A DNA stretch of 64,000 nucleotides. Source: Acidobacteriota bacterium (lineage in GTDB: Bacteria > Acidobacteriota > UBA6911 > JACOSC01). The translations under genes were made by a program, and so were the position numbers. This document shows, in pieces, positions 15,222-59,274 of this stretch. The notes beneath the pieces were generated by a model. The model saw only the letters and a program-made list of their open reading frames with translations, was not told where the DNA came from and did no database searches. Each line of letters starts with the position of its first letter. Position 1 is the stretch's first letter. The stretch is taken from NCBI GenBank assembly GCA_016179055.1, contig JACOSC010000025.1:45586-109585 (forward strand), in the 5' to 3' direction.

Positions 15222-15367
15222 AGGTAATGCTTGAAATTTAAAGGAAGGTTTATTGTAGGAGAAAGGCAATGATAGCGCTCTTAATTATAGGCTATATGGG
15301 AGCATTGTACATGAGGCTTCTTGAGCGGATACGATTGACTTTTACACATCCCTTTCATAAACTTCTA

Positions 15368-15436
15368 TTGGTGGCGATGGGGTCCGCCAGGGAGTGCCCG
15401 CTCCCAAACCGTCCCAGCTAGGACTGATGGCTCCTA
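15368..15436 (+). ncRNA. Fluoride riboswitch (crcB motif)
   Basis: GGCGATGGGGTCCGCC forms the first conserved stem-loop, an internal stem follows (GGGAGTGCCCGCTCCC), then the aptamer closes with CTGATGGCTCCTA. These match the conserved crcB-motif core (GGCGATGG...CGCC and TGATGRCTCCTA). It ends about 36 bases before the antiporter start. With no U-tract terminator between them, control is probably translational through the AAGGAG at 15461. A 51-codon ORF from 15270 runs across the aptamer and is rejected as a gene. Confidence 0.92.
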
Positions 15437-15472
15437 AATAATTAGTCACCTTCAAAGAGAAAGGAGCTATGA

Positions 15473-22874: not shown

Positions 22875-23011
22875 AGAGCGCCCTTACCCAGACATTTTTT
22901 TCGGAAAGTGCTAAGACTTGACCATGTTCCGCGTGGATGACCCGCGGGCGCTTGACTCCTTATCAATGGTGTGATAGGGTTTCAACGTTATTGATCTGTT
23001 CTTTCAAAAAC

Positions 23012-23262
23012 TCCTAGAGGTGATTGACCCCTGCAAGGGTCAATCAAGAGGGAAGTTGGGTGAGTTGATTCATGAGTCTTGCGCCTAGAGGCGGCTCATC
23101 GGTCAACAAGGCCCACGCGGTCCCGCCACTGTAATCGGAGAGCGATATTTCTTTGCCGGCGATAGACGCGGCGGTCACTCTGGTTAAGGCCAACAATGGC
23201 CGGCCGGGGGAAGGCCCGAAATTTTCGCGAGGATCCGTAAGTCAGGAAACCTGCCTCGGGAG
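23012..23262 (+). ncRNA. Cobalamin riboswitch
   Basis: The core CACGCGGTCCCGCCACTGTAA (23114 onward) and the B12 box AGTCAGGAAACCTGCC (23240-23255) are clear. The leading AGGGAAGTTGGGTG region fits the aptamer 5' side. It is followed by an intrinsic terminator and then btuF, so adenosylcobalamin should shut off uptake genes by transcription termination. Confidence 0.95.
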
Positions 23263-23307
23263 AAAATTCGGTTAGCTCTTCGCGGAAAAGAGTCCGTCCG
23301 GTTTGGA

Positions 23308-23352: not shown

Positions 23353-23469
23353 GCCGGCCAGTCAGTCGAGGGTTTTAAAATGGGATCTACGATCCGCGCG
23401 ACGTGTCTGAATCGTGAACAAAGCGCGCTATATCTTGGCTTTATACAAGCCTCGCCGCTTCTGAAAAAA

Positions 23470-23570
23470 ACTCCGGTGAAAAAGAACCGGTAGCGGTAGC
23501 GACCGGGTATGTCAAGTCTTGGCATACCCGCTCGCTACCGCAGTTGGTTCTGTTTTTTTATTCGTCGTAG
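23470..23570. repeat. CCGGTAGCGGTAGCGACCGGGT palindromic repeat, copy 1
   Basis: GAACCGGTAGCGGTAGCGAC and the inverse arm CGCTACCGCAGTTGGTTC enclose a GGGTATG/CATACCC stem. A related copy including the outer flanks (ACTCCGG..., TTTTTATTCGTCG) is inside the coding sequence at 58591-58691; core palindromes also occur at 31042, 36240 and 47485. Confidence 0.75.
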
Positions 23571-23598
23571 ATCTTCGCCGTAGGCATGAGGAATTCGC

Positions 23599-24555
23599 AT
23601 GAGCAAAGAATTGCACAACGCTTCATCGATGGCGCTGAGTGGCGCTGGTCTCTTCCTACGCTTTTTAATGCTTTCTCTGCTCTGGTCAGGCGTCGCCTGT
23701 GGGACGTCCGGCGCCGGCCGTCAAACGCGGCCGCCGGCTGATGGAAAGCGGCGTTTGATTGATCAAGTAGAGCGCGTCCTTTTCGTCGCACCCAACCCCT
23801 CTCGCATTATTTCGCTGGCCCCTAGCGTGACGGAGATTCTTTTTGCCTTAGGTGTCGAGGATCGTGTCGTGGGTGTGACCAACTTCTGCCATTTCCCCGA
23901 CGGCGTAAAACCGAAGACGCGCATCGGCGACTTACAGAATCCGAACCTGGAGGTTATTGTCTCGTTGCGGCCGGATCTGGTTATTGCTACGACCAGCGGT
24001 AACGTTAAAGAGTCCATTGACAAAATGGCGGAATTGAATCTGGCCGTTTACACGCTCAATGCCTCCACTCTGGAAGAAATTCTACGGTCGATACGAGATG
24101 TGGGTGATATTACGGGAACTCAACAAAAGGCGGCCGCGGTGGTCGGCGATTTGCGTCGCCGTCTGTTGGCCGTCCGACAACGAGGGCAAGGCCGGCCAAC
24201 CCCTCGTGTGCTTTATCTTATCTGGCATGACCCTATCGTGGCGCCGGGCGGGGATTCCTTTATCACCGACGGCTTGCGCTGGGCCGGCGGCGATTCCATA
24301 ACGGCGGATACCAAAGCTCGATCCCCGCGCTACAGCGCGGAAGAAATCATAGCTAAGCAGCCGGAGTATATCTTCGTTCCCAAGGGCGAAAACCCGGTCA
24401 CCCTGTCGTACTTTCTCGAGAGCCCGGGCTGGGCCACGCTGCCGGCCGTCATTGAGCGACGGATCTATTTCATCAGCCCGGCCATTCAGCAGCCGAGCCC
24501 GAAATTGATCGACGGCATTGAAGAGGTAGCAGGAATACTGCACGGTCCACCATGA
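23599..24555 (+). CDS. btuF: Cobalamin ABC transporter substrate-binding protein (BtuF-like)
   Basis: 318 residues. The N-terminus MLSLLWSGVAC is a plausible lipoprotein signal with Cys 35; the Gly at -3 is not ideal. The body has SRIISLAPSVTEILFALGVEDRVVGVT and the RPDLVIATT segment of helical-backbone type III binding proteins. The partner would be the permease at 24711. Position downstream of the cobalamin riboswitch makes vitamin B12 the expected ligand. GAGGA lies before the ATG. It captures periplasmic B12 delivered by the TonB receptor at 27819. Confidence 0.9.
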   Translation: MSKELHNASSMALSGAGLFLRFLMLSLLWSGVACGTSGAGRQTRPPADGKRRLIDQVERVLFVAPNPSRIISLAPSVTEILFALGVEDRVVGVTNFCHFPDGVKPKTRIGDLQNPNLEVIVSLRPDLVIATTSGNVKESIDKMAELNLAVYTLNASTLEEILRSIRDVGDITGTQQKAAAVVGDLRRRLLAVRQRGQGRPTPRVLYLIWHDPIVAPGGDSFITDGLRWAGGDSITADTKARSPRYSAEEIIAKQPEYIFVPKGENPVTLSYFLESPGWATLPAVIERRIYFISPAIQQPSPKLIDGIEEVAGILHGPP

Positions 24556-36206: not shown

Positions 36207-36290
36207 GTAACGGTTCAGGCGGTCTGCATTGATACAGACCGGGTCTATGTGCCATACGACGCTTATCCGGTCGCTACCGCTCTCGGTTCT
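36207..36290. repeat. Partial GTAAC/CCGGTCGCTACCG composite repeat
   Basis: GTAACGGTTCAGGCGGTCTGC with TGATACAGACCGGGT is the inverted right half of the 47445 repeat, followed by CCGGTCGCTACCGCTCTCGG. The 5' arm of the palindrome is decayed. Nothing else is identified in 35990-36206. Confidence 0.6.
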
Positions 36291-36356
36291 GTATGGGATG
36301 ACCGCCCTACGGCGTGGAGGGGTTGCACAGGTACGTAAAATATTTGAGATTCTTGT

Positions 36357-47430: not shown

Positions 47431-47591
47431 TGATTTCAAATTTCGTAATGGTTCAACCACCCACGCCTTAGGGCACCCAGCCGATACAGAACCGGGAGCG
47501 GTAGCGACCGGGTCGGCACGATGTTGCCAGGCGCGCGCCCGGTCGCTACCGCTCCCGGCTCTGTATCAGTGCAGACCCACTGAACAGTTAC
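47431..47591. repeat. Composite GTAAC/GTTCA repeat with CCGGGAGCGGTAGC palindrome
   Basis: The ends GTAATGGTTCA and TGAACAGTTAC face each other. Inside is a long hairpin with arms ACAGAACCGGGAGCGGTAGC and GCTACCGCTCCCGG. No matching 8-base duplication is seen, so this is an old or rearranged copy. 47124-47430 also carries short direct repeats of CGGTGGTATCGCTGCGCTCA type. Confidence 0.75.
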
Positions 47592-54883: not shown

Positions 54884-54962
54884 CGGCAAGTCTGTTGGCT
54901 GGGCTTGGAGATCGTTGAGATGATTGGCGTGCGCGCTTTCACTTTTCGATGGGTACGTTTCC

Positions 54963-56891
54963 ATGGGTATGCTTCGTTATATTAAAATTAGGGGCCAGTG
55001 GTTGATTAGCGCACTTACCCGCTACTTTGGGTTGCTTAGTGTGCTGATTCTCGGCGCGCTTGCCCTCGGCACCGGCGCGTTTCTTCTGGTGCTGAACTCC
55101 GCTTACGGAATACTCCCCAGCCATCTGTTGCTCGCTGGAAGGGAGACCGCAGGGGCGTCGTCATGGCGCGTGGCGCTCTTGTCGTCCGGGTACAGCATAG
55201 CGGCCTATGAGAAGATGCAGGCCAACCATCGCGTGCAGATCGGTATATGGTCTAACTTTTTAAGAGACGCCGGGGCAGAGGTTCATGTCATTGATGACGC
55301 CGATCTGGAGGGAGGCCTCGACCCAAAGATTCAGGTCCTCGTGGTGCCCGGCAGCCTGGCGCTTAGCGATCAAGCGCGCCGCCAAGTAAGCAGCTTTGTT
55401 AAAGCGGGCGGCGGATTGATTGTGGAAGGCGCCTCAGGCACCAGGGATGCTCAAGATCATTGGAAGGGGTGGGATTTCATTAGGGAGTTGTCCGGCGTGG
55501 AGGGTATTGAAGTTCTTCCGGCGCAGGGTCAGGAACGCCGATTTATCACGCTGGTGGCGGGTTCGCCACTGACCGTACAGCTTCCGGCCGGGCTGAAATT
55601 GGAGAATGGATTCTTCGGCGAAAACTATGCCGTGCGGTCAGGCCTATCTTCCGCCTACTGGTCGGAGTGGGTTCGTCCAGCAGCGCCGTCGGCGCCCTAT
55701 CTGTCGGCCATGACGCGCAACGTGTATGGCAAAGGCAGAGTGGTATGGCTGGGATTTGGTCTGGACGCTATGAGCGAAGCGCCGATAATGCGCCGCGCCC
55801 TTCTGCAATTGTTGGGCAACGCTCTCGCATGGGCCGCCGAACAGCCGCTTTGGCAAGTCGCGCTTTGGCCGCATCAGGAGCAGGGGGCGGTCAATATAAC
55901 CTTTGATTGCGAGAATGATTTTGGCAATCTTTACCACGTCTTAGACATGCCGGAGGCCCAACGATTGCGCTTTACTTTTTTTATGCTTTCTTCCGTGGCG
56001 CAGAAGAATCCCGCGCTGGTTAAGCAGGCGGCGACCCGTGGCGAGATCGCGGTGCACGGTGACGACCATGCGGCTTTTAGCGGGCAGACGCCGGAAGACC
56101 AGGCACAGCGCTTGACGCGGGCGCAGAGCGTATTGCAAGCGTTAAGCCAGACCGCGATCGTCAGCTTTCGCCCCCCCGAGCAGAGCTATGATGCCAACAC
56201 GCTGGCGACCTTGCGCAAACTCGGCCTGACCAATATCTTTGCCGATTATCTGGGCACGGCTTCGCCGCGTCTGGAACATGAAACTAAAGTGGGACGCAAT
56301 TTTCGTCTCCCATTTGTGAATAACGAAACGACCCTGGTCAGGATACCGAGACCGGCTTATGACGATTACGATTTGTTCGGGCGCGCGCCGCATACGGCTA
56401 ATCAGGCCTTGGAGCTCGCCTTGGCGGACATGAATCAGATTATTCACGACGGCGGCTTATATGTTTCCAGTATGCATACGACGTCGCCCTGGGGCGGGCT
56501 CAACCCCGATAAGCTTCCCGTACTGGCGGGCTTGATTAAAGCAGTGCAAGGCCGCCCGATCTGGGTCGCGACGGTTAAGGAAACGGCGGCGTGGTGGCTC
56601 GAGCGCTCGCAGATTCAGATATCGGTCAACAAGTATTCCGACTCCGTCATCCTCTTGCAGGTTACCAATGGCAATGATCACGCTCTTGAAAATCTTCCGC
56701 TCGAGCTTCATTTGCCGCAGAATTTTACCGGCCTTGATATTCAAAGTTCTAAAGTGGATTTTCACCCGCCGAAATGGAAAGCGAGCGAGACCGGCAGGCT
56801 GAGCGTAGTTATTCCGAGTATCAAACGTGGGGAGAGCAAGAGCTATATTCTGACTGCAAAACCCAATACGGCTGAGAATAAAGGGGTGTGA
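54963..56891 (+). CDS. GATase-like / CE4 deacetylase-like membrane-anchored protein, paralogue 1
   Basis: 642 residues from the ATG at 54963; the tracked start at 54924 is a TTG. One N-terminal membrane segment (~12-40). Residues ~70-290 resemble the class I GATase-like fold (VLVVPGSLALSD, FVKAGGGLIVEGASGT, GKGRVVWLGFGLD). Residues ~305-540 form a NodB-like barrel: ITFDCENDF (Asp 315), HGDDH (His 365, 369) and FRPPEQSYD correspond to CE4 motifs 1-3, with DCEND in place of the usual DDG. A C-terminal beta domain follows (~555-640). Probably modifies the polymer in the periplasm, as PgaB does. The 57343 product is a full-length paralogue. Confidence 0.8.
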   Translation: MGMLRYIKIRGQWLISALTRYFGLLSVLILGALALGTGAFLLVLNSAYGILPSHLLLAGRETAGASSWRVALLSSGYSIAAYEKMQANHRVQIGIWSNFLRDAGAEVHVIDDADLEGGLDPKIQVLVVPGSLALSDQARRQVSSFVKAGGGLIVEGASGTRDAQDHWKGWDFIRELSGVEGIEVLPAQGQERRFITLVAGSPLTVQLPAGLKLENGFFGENYAVRSGLSSAYWSEWVRPAAPSAPYLSAMTRNVYGKGRVVWLGFGLDAMSEAPIMRRALLQLLGNALAWAAEQPLWQVALWPHQEQGAVNITFDCENDFGNLYHVLDMPEAQRLRFTFFMLSSVAQKNPALVKQAATRGEIAVHGDDHAAFSGQTPEDQAQRLTRAQSVLQALSQTAIVSFRPPEQSYDANTLATLRKLGLTNIFADYLGTASPRLEHETKVGRNFRLPFVNNETTLVRIPRPAYDDYDLFGRAPHTANQALELALADMNQIIHDGGLYVSSMHTTSPWGGLNPDKLPVLAGLIKAVQGRPIWVATVKETAAWWLERSQIQISVNKYSDSVILLQVTNGNDHALENLPLELHLPQNFTGLDIQSSKVDFHPPKWKASETGRLSVVIPSIKRGESKSYILTAKPNTAENKGV

Positions 56892-57342: not shown

Positions 57343-59274
57343 ATGATTCGAAGTCACAACTTAGTAAGGCTATTGGGGGTGCTGTTGGGTTGCCTGATCA
57401 TCGCCGGCTCCGGGATGGCCAAGAGCCGGAGTTTATACGGGCCCGTGGCCCTAGTGAATTCCGAATATACGCAAAAATTTTATCAAAGGCGGAAAGCCGA
57501 CTACTCGCTATTGCTGGCCATGTGGCAAGAGGCCATACGACGGCAAGGCGTCGATTATCAAATTATAACGGACGATGACCTCGCTACCCGCAATCTTCTC
57601 AAATATTCGGCGCTGATATTGCCGGGCGCGGCCGCCCTGAGTGACCGTGCGTTGGCCTCGGCAGAGCGCTACGCCGCCAACGGTGGGGGGCTCTTGCTGG
57701 GGGGCGCGGTCGGCACGTTGGACAGCGCCGGCCAGTGGCGGGGATGGGACTTCGTAAAGTCGCTGGCGGGGTTGACTGAGGTGCGAGCCCTGCGCAAGCA
57801 GGATTATAAGAGCCTCTATTTGACGCTGATCGGGGACTCTCCGCTCACGCTTAACCTGCCCGCCGGGCTGCGCATTGAGAATGAATTTTATAACGAAAAT
57901 TATGCCGGCATCTCCGACCGGCAAGCCGCCTACTGGGCCGACGCGGCCAACCCGCTTTACGTGTCTACGCCGGACGTGTTTTACACAGCCCTACAATCCG
58001 CGCAGTACGGTCAAGGACGCGTCGTATGGTTTGGGTTTAATCTTGAATCCATGAGCAATCTTGTAGAAAACCAACGAGCCTTGCTGACACTTATTGCAAA
58101 CAGCGTGCGCTGGCTCCGTCAGGAACCGATGGCGCAGGTGGCCTTGTGGCCGCAGAGCAAAAGATCCGCGGTAAGCTTGACCTTTGATTGCGAGAATGAT
58201 TTCGCCAATCTGTCCAATTTGCTCAACCGTCTGGATGTCTCGCAGTTTCGTTTCACCTTTTTCATGCTCTCCTCCATGGCCGAACAGTTTCCGCAGGTAG
58301 TTCGGCGGGCGACAGAATTTGGCGAGGTGGCGATCCATGGCGACGATCATTCGATTTTTAAGCGGCAATCCTACAACACGCAACTACAGCGTCTAGCGCG
58401 CGCACAGGCACGGCTCCAAGCGCTCAGCGAGGAGCATGCGATCAGTTTCCGTCCCCCGCTGCAAGGATTTGACGCTCAAACCCTACTGGCCATGTCCAAG
58501 ACCGGCATACGAAATTTCTTTTCCGATTATAATTTGTCTTCGATGCCTTATTTTCAATCGGTGGACCGCGCGCGCAGCGCCTCCGAAAATAACTCCGGCG
58601 AAACAGAACCGGGAGCGCTAGCGACCGGGTGCACCGAGGCCCCGACTTACCCGTCCGCTACCGCAGGCGGTTCCGTTTTTCATTCATCGTGGCGCCCCAA
58701 ATGGGGCACGAACAACGCCGCCGACAATGCGCTGGTAACCTTCCCGCGGCCGCGCTATGACGACTACGATCTCTTTGTGCGGTATCAATTGAGCAATGAC
58801 CAGGCCATCAAGTACGTTGCCGAAGATTTTGCGCGTGTAGATAAGGAGCGCGGACTCTATGTGTTGAATATGCACACCACTTCGCCGTGGGGTGGATTAA
58901 CGCGGCGCCGGATCCGTGTCCTCTCAACCTTGATCCATCAGTTAGCGGGCCGCACGGAAATCTGGTTTCCCACTATTCGCGAGGTGGGCGAGTGGTGGCG
59001 CTTGCGCAGTCAGATTGACCTGGAGGTATCCAGAGACGTGGACAACGTCCTGCGATTGGAAATAACCAATCATAATAATCAGCATCTGAACGACGTGGTG
59101 GTTGAAACGTATCTGCCCAATGCTTACGCCGACGTGAAGATCTTCGAAGAAGCCGCTCAAGTTGGAACGTGCCGAGTGGAGAAGCAACAAGACAAGTGGA
59201 TCATACGTATTCCCGCGCTGCAAGCCCGCGAAGTGAAACATCTCCTATTGACGCCAACCCAACCCGCCGAGTAA
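57343..59274 (+). CDS. GATase-like / CE4 deacetylase-like secreted protein, paralogue 2
   Basis: 643 residues, GGGAGAA before the ATG. Unlike paralogue 1 it has a cleavable-type signal (LLGVLLGCLIIAGSGMAKS). The GATase-like domain (~35-265; LILPGAAALSD, YAANGGGLLLGGAVGT, GQGRVVWFGFNLE) and the NodB-like domain (LTFDCENDF, Asp 282; HGDDH, His 332 and 336; FRPPLQGFD) follow, then the same C-terminal beta domain. Between FFSDYNLSS and TFPRPRYDDYDLF there are about 33 extra residues (ETEPGALATG...) encoded by a palindromic repeat (58591-58691). The frame is kept. Two deacetylase-like genes in one locus suggest successive or alternative polymer modification. Confidence 0.8.
   Translation: MIRSHNLVRLLGVLLGCLIIAGSGMAKSRSLYGPVALVNSEYTQKFYQRRKADYSLLLAMWQEAIRRQGVDYQIITDDDLATRNLLKYSALILPGAAALSDRALASAERYAANGGGLLLGGAVGTLDSAGQWRGWDFVKSLAGLTEVRALRKQDYKSLYLTLIGDSPLTLNLPAGLRIENEFYNENYAGISDRQAAYWADAANPLYVSTPDVFYTALQSAQYGQGRVVWFGFNLESMSNLVENQRALLTLIANSVRWLRQEPMAQVALWPQSKRSAVSLTFDCENDFANLSNLLNRLDVSQFRFTFFMLSSMAEQFPQVVRRATEFGEVAIHGDDHSIFKRQSYNTQLQRLARAQARLQALSEEHAISFRPPLQGFDAQTLLAMSKTGIRNFFSDYNLSSMPYFQSVDRARSASENNSGETEPGALATGCTEAPTYPSATAGGSVFHSSWRPKWGTNNAADNALVTFPRPRYDDYDLFVRYQLSNDQAIKYVAEDFARVDKERGLYVLNMHTTSPWGGLTRRRIRVLSTLIHQLAGRTEIWFPTIREVGEWWRLRSQIDLEVSRDVDNVLRLEITNHNNQHLNDVVVETYLPNAYADVKIFEEAAQVGTCRVEKQQDKWIIRIPALQAREVKHLLLTPTQPAE
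58591..58691 (+). repeat. Palindromic repeat inserted in frame inside the second deacetylase-like gene
   Basis: ACTCCGGCGAAACAGAACCG, GGGAGCGCTAGCGACCGGGT and ACCCGTCCGCTACCGC, then GGTTCCGTTTTTCATTCATC follow the intergenic repeat at 23470-23570 including its outer flanks. It interrupts a region that is colinear in the paralogue at 54963-56891. Confidence 0.85.

Follow-up and report, generated by a model that had tools for sequence, protein, structure and literature searches.

REPs that lie inside open reading frames and add peptides to the encoded proteins have already been documented (PMC3733652). That report describes intragenic dimers of GTAG/CGTC REPs that are wholly contained in ORFs and add about 20-80 residues, with most copies of the families intergenic (Di Nocera et al. 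2013; PMC3733652); it also cites the Rickettsia palindromic elements (RPE) of Ogata, Claverie and colleagues, which are palindromes found in frame in protein genes. We analysed a stretch of 64,000 nucleotides from an Acidobacteriota genome (contig JACOSC010000025.1; hereafter the window), in which the second of two deacetylase-like genes carries an in-frame palindromic insert. This insert is best matched by the REP dimers that are ascribed to RAYT transposases, a known phenomenon; in-frame insertion of a palindrome is a known yet uncommon kind of event.

The insert shares with the intragenic GTAG/CGTC REPs a dimer inside an ORF, an added peptide and a family whose copies are mostly intergenic (PMC3733652). 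It differs in that its unit is a ~140-bp composite with a second hairpin, in that the GTAG is found inside the core, and in belonging to another phylum and another host gene. With the REPIN/BIME and RAYT systems (PMC3116915, PMC8266576) it has in common two inverted cores around a loop, hundreds of dispersed cores and a true RAYT gene in the genome, but in the window family the dimer has additional conserved sequence on either side, and no RAYT directly flanked by this family was found in the loci searched. The RPEs, as mobile palindromes in frame inside protein genes, are a functional analogue; they come from an unrelated lineage and are often intragenic in Rickettsia, whereas here only 1 of 123 near-complete copies clearly is. 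We found no earlier description of such an insert in Acidobacteriota in the literature, and the deacetylase insert is a clean example of a non-coding mobile palindrome lengthening a protein.

Results and Discussion

An in-frame REP-type element in a deacetylase-like gene

The features discussed are collected in Table 1. The product of the host gene has Glyco_hydro_42M/ThuA-like and Polysacc_deac_1 domains, as does that of its upstream neighbour apart from ThuA. The element codes for residues ~413-458 of the host protein and is placed after FRPP and ahead of MHTTSPWGG, outside the motifs that both paralogues have conserved. Its flanks, cgcctccgaaaat at 58578 and cgccgccgacaat at 58716, are similar to one another and are spaced by exactly 138 bp, or 46 codons. 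At this position the paralogue has its own loop, an ordinary one of 28 residues, and it is because of this loop that the net gap in the alignment of the two proteins is 39 residues and not 46. An AlphaFold prediction of the host protein gave a mean pLDDT of 44, with too few sequences for a usable model.

Table 1. Coordinates of the window element, its host and family, and of RAYT-like domains nested in frame in other genes (window positions unless a locus is given; G000 is the window's genome)
Feature	Location	Strand	Evidence or remark
In-frame REP-type element: two inverted REP cores, loop, second hairpin, tail	~58578..~58719	+	BLAST, nhmmer, covariance-model matches
5' junction cgcctccgaaaat	58578..58590	+	similar to cgccgccgacaat at 58716-58728; read from sequence
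Inverted arms of element	58601-58630 and 58649-58678 (58601..58678)	+	repeat search; 77% complementary
Second small hairpin (gcgcccca/tggggcac), regular 3' part of unit	58692..58709	+	copy alignments, fold
Host gene, deacetylase-like, 643 aa, open through insert	57343..59274	+	ORF; Pfam Polysacc_deac_1, Glyco_hydro_42M
Tandem paralogue without element, 37% identical to host	54924..56891	+	ORF, Pfam, alignment
Intergenic copy of family	23455..23594	+	BLAST, nhmmer; 78% identical to consensus
Third, partial family copy	47469..47568	-	nhmmer 48 bits
Weak fourth match	36238..36292	-	nhmmer 27 bits
RAYT-like (Y1_Tnp) in 1199-aa DUF1156/HmaB-like methylase	L229:1781-5377 (G000, C54)	+	in-frame
RAYT-like (Y1_Tnp) in 1384-aa type IIG Eco57I enzyme	L230:1652-5803 (G000, C197)	-	in-frame
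RAYT-like (Y1_Tnp) in 1369-aa type IIG Eco57I enzyme	L231:386-4492 (G000, C232)	-	in-frame
Acetyl-CoA synthetase with RAYT module	L254:1672-4548 (G261)	-	in-frame
Acetyl-CoA synthetase with RAYT module	L255:2166-5072 (G289)	+	in-frame
PriA helicase with RAYT between 3'BD and DEAD domains	L256:3339-6356 (G370)	+	in-frame
Further Acidobacteriota DNA methylase ORFs with RAYT	L238:1003-3777, L250:1060-6492, L251:1924-5679, L252:1991-5755, L257:2719-6690		in-frame

A first-pass annotation of the window had taken about 100 bases, 58591-58691, to resemble an intergenic repeat at 23470-23570 and to add about 33 residues at a site where the paralogue has none. The two sequences are indeed homologous; a BLAST search of the whole genome (5.3 Mb, 334 contigs) with 23455-23575 as query gave 53 matches, of which C160:104163-104275, equivalent to window 58578-58690, was found at E=1e-16 and 77% identity, besides dozens of other copies. 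The repeat is present where it was placed, but the true unit is longer and the added segment is ~46 residues rather than ~33. Likewise, the paralogue does lack the element, but its own loop occupies the site. The unbroken frame is borne out by the open ORF and the 46-codon spacing. Mobility, which had also been proposed, is supported by the dispersal of over 100 copies whose ends are sharp and shared, and by the absence of the exact core from 37 class relatives, and the copy in the host gene supports the claim that the repeat can add a protein segment in frame.

The fold of the element as RNA has a predicted energy of -53.9 kcal/mol (z -1.8). In aligned copies the family starts with CTCCTCTGAAAATAAC... 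and finishes with ...GGGGCATGAACAACTCC; between these ends a pair of inverted REP cores and their variable loop are followed by CATTCGTCGTGG and by the second hairpin (GCCCC...GGGGC). Most family copies include this 3' part, which consists of the second hairpin and the tail GAACAAC. The unit length is ~140 bp and that of the REP core ~26 bp, and some units of the family are arranged in tandem. A family-wide permutation test of the flanks for a target-site duplication reached z ~2 in the best registers among several, which is not convincing.

The family in the genome

A covariance model built from 30 copies placed the family at a minimum of 149 sites in the genome, a lower bound given that 150 candidates were scored. 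An nhmmer profile applied to ~0.66 Mb of fetched genome stretches found 181 pieces, 123 of them near-complete; the genome holds at least 123 such copies. The exact 26-bp core AGAACCGGGAGCGGTAGCGACCGGGT is present 179 times (95 forward, 84 reverse), often in pairs; REPs are short units of 20-40 bp in high copy number that are mostly intergenic, and the core agrees with this. The consensus fold of the family, together with the inverted arms in both window copies (58601-58678 and that at 23455), identifies these as palindromic inverted dimers. Within the core (AGCGGTAGCG) all or nearly all copies have GTAG, but in an internal position that is not clearly a hairpin end; in REPs of the GTAG superfamily this tetranucleotide is at one end of the stem-loop.

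Only the copy at 58578..58719 has homologous protein demonstrable on both sides, out of the 123 near-complete ones. The other ORFs that span copies, part of which were covered by a Pfam scan, either appear to be over-extended upstream (deformylase, aminotransferase, S51 peptidase, sigma factor) or have no Pfam support. A CIA30-like ORF of L003 is a possible second intragenic case; its Pfam match is found only 3' of the element, and a downstream start is possible.

The intergenic window copy is flanked by a cobalamin riboswitch (23001-23272) on one side and by a BtuF-like gene that starts near 23599 on the other, and it could affect the transcript of that gene. The window also contains a fluoride riboswitch at 15364-15443 (42.7 bits).

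Probable origin and mobilisation of the element

We consider it very likely that the second deacetylase-like gene was the target of a non-autonomous mobile element of the REP type, with a RAYT-type mobiliser the likely agent and the resulting peptide probably tolerated. The insertion of the ~140-bp unit would have followed the divergence of the gene from its neighbour; since 138 bp is divisible by three and one frame is free of stops, the reading frame would have survived with a new 46-residue loop between FRPP and MHTTSP. It would probably have been moved by a Y1/HUH transposase of the RAYT (TnpA-REP) type whose gene lies at another locus of the genome. A RAYT is present at C243:50082-50489 and scores 104 bits, above the cut-off of NF047646 (NCBIfam). 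Exact REP dimers are found ~0.7 and ~1.4 kb upstream of it, with another gene in between; in the loci searched, no RAYT directly flanked by the window's REP family was found. That a RAYT mobilises this REP is likely by analogy with REPs in general (PMC8266576, PMC3116915) rather than from direct flanking.

Alternatively, the element may be moved by something other than a RAYT, either an IS200/IS605-like TnpA acting on the end hairpins, which would make the family a PATE/MITE-like derivative, or an unrelated transposase. This is the less likely reading but it deserves some weight: there are 19 Y1_Tnp matches in the genome, and all five of the stand-alone proteins tested were called IS200/IS605 by NCBIfam. 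Furthermore, the unit has a hairpin near each end and conserved tetranucleotide-like ends (CTCC), an arrangement that we take to resemble the ends of IS200/IS605 elements. Against this, the element ends were not found beside any of the eight IS200-like Y1_Tnp loci searched, so there is no autonomous partner there, and the 26-bp core is common to REP-rich Acidobacteriota that do not have the outer ends, which fits a REP better than an IS-specific MITE.

The direction of the event is judged from relatives. A search for orthologues with an empty site was negative in 38 class genomes (E<=1e-10) and in GTDB220 contigs, and the 396 phylum genomes, searched at E<=1e-12 or 1e-15, yielded no full-length orthologue of the host gene. 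The exact REP core has no copy in the 37 class relatives searched, on which ground the insertion is very probably the derived state. The core is found in 11 of the 396 phylum genomes. Named carriers are Blastocatellia, Pyrinomonadaceae and other Acidobacteriota MAGs, in which the longer query matched in short pieces only. With 179 cores in this genome, none in the 37 relatives from its class and an identical core in Blastocatellia and Pyrinomonadaceae, the family would either have arrived horizontally or have been lost elsewhere.

Fate of the inserted peptide

Of 594 aligned codons in the paralogue pair, 246 specify the same residue, 135 of these by different codons, and the differences at codon positions 1, 2 and 3 are 0.47, 0.37 and 0.61. 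The pattern points to a long history of purifying selection on the pair, without singling out the time after the insertion. The insert itself matches the family consensus at 88% identity, which ranks it 34th of 123 copies, and its 15 substitutions are distributed 7/4/4 over codon positions 1/2/3; in this small number of changes there is no sign of selection for the inserted peptide. Among the six frames, the one in which the insert is read is open in more copies of the family than any other (46 of 111), and the lengths of the units leave all three remainders on division by three. A surviving in-frame hit therefore needs no special mechanism. The peptide is most likely tolerated rather than useful.

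The first-pass annotation had called the repeat domesticated, meaning that the segment was kept after insertion since the peptide now functions, for example as a linker or substrate-binding loop. The ORF is still open, and the insert is nearer to the consensus than the median copy (85%), as would be expected if this were so. It is nevertheless quite improbable: the 7/4/4 pattern, albeit from 15 changes, has no third-position excess, the divergence of the insert is too low for an open frame to demand explanation, and it is a single case among 123 copies. Neither an orthologue showing retention nor a sign of peptide function was found, and the term is not supported. That the resemblance arose by chance, or that an ordinary ancestral protein segment merely looks like the repeat, is hardly credible, since nothing speaks for it beyond the absence of an orthologue, and it is contradicted by the E value (1e-16 in a genome of 5.3 Mb), by the 100 and more other copies, by the presence of the core in other Acidobacteriota and by the paralogue, which lacks the segment.

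RAYT domains nested in frame in other genes

RAYTs are usually described as stand-alone, domesticated genes. In the window's genome, RAYT-like domains are instead found in frame within three large ORFs (Table 1). In both type IIG ORFs the RAYT is flanked by palindromic repeats that can be read as peptides (STGIPACALPETQ; DAASSR...KRQDAAST); many of the spacings are multiples of three, and L231 has GTAG-tagged palindromes. When the 1384-aa ORF was searched against 396 phylum genomes, uninterrupted type IIG relatives were found in G247, G177, G069, G386 and G184. Nested RAYTs were found in other genomes of the phylum as well: type IIG ORFs with a RAYT are present in G110 and G125, the module lying after or before motif I; DUF1156 ORFs with a RAYT occur in G149 and G186, at a site different from that in the window's genome; and an N6_N4 MTase in G157 has an in-frame RAYT. 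In the further methylases of Table 1 the RAYT position varies relative to the MTase motifs. The REP families at the nested RAYTs differ in sequence from that of the window.

Hosts are not limited to methylases. The RAYT in the PriA helicase is flanked by repeated peptides (SADTPVRIAGSSGE...SVRTPI). The two acetyl-CoA synthetases come from two species of one genus and have the RAYT module at different sites; at the site used in the other, each lacks a RAYT and has just a short REP-like peptide (RNADTPVRVP; TADTPVRPSAKHE...DADKSVRGP). Each therefore serves as the reference site of the other, free of the transposase.

What is directly seen for these modules is the open nested frames, the uninterrupted type IIG relatives and the two acetyl-CoA synthetases with different sites. 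From these sequences it is possible, if somewhat less than probable, that coding sequence is a regular landing place for Acidobacteriota REP systems, short REPs adding loops and complete REP-RAYT-REP modules residing in frame inside large genes. The transposase domain would then be translated within type IIG or DUF1156 methylases, acetyl-CoA synthetase or PriA, with the REP peptides as linkers, and no member of this set of "translatable" mobile elements would be smaller than the deacetylase insert. Such putative elements would be somewhat like inteins in distribution, but without splicing.

The nested RAYT domains are more important than the deacetylase insert that led to them. They are found in several unrelated large genes within a single phylum and at differing sites, which raises the question of how RAYT modules spread, and also whether RAYTs are expressed from host genes. 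No description of RAYT domains inside methyltransferase or restriction genes was found in the open-access literature; "unexpectedly long proteins" have been discarded as gene fusions or annotation errors (PMC6006769).

Two observations on single ORFs may be added. The 1811-aa type IIG ORF of G125 (L250) contains long in-frame tandem peptide arrays (VEQTFLSVSSPEQTQAEMPAPHSQHQ; VEQAFLPVTQQQTQTEMSLSRS), which are apparently translated repeats. In G311, a restriction enzyme subunit (L253:1701-4925) in which Pfam calls no Y1_Tnp has a RAYT-like segment, detected by tblastn, between its helicase and EcoEI_R_C domains.
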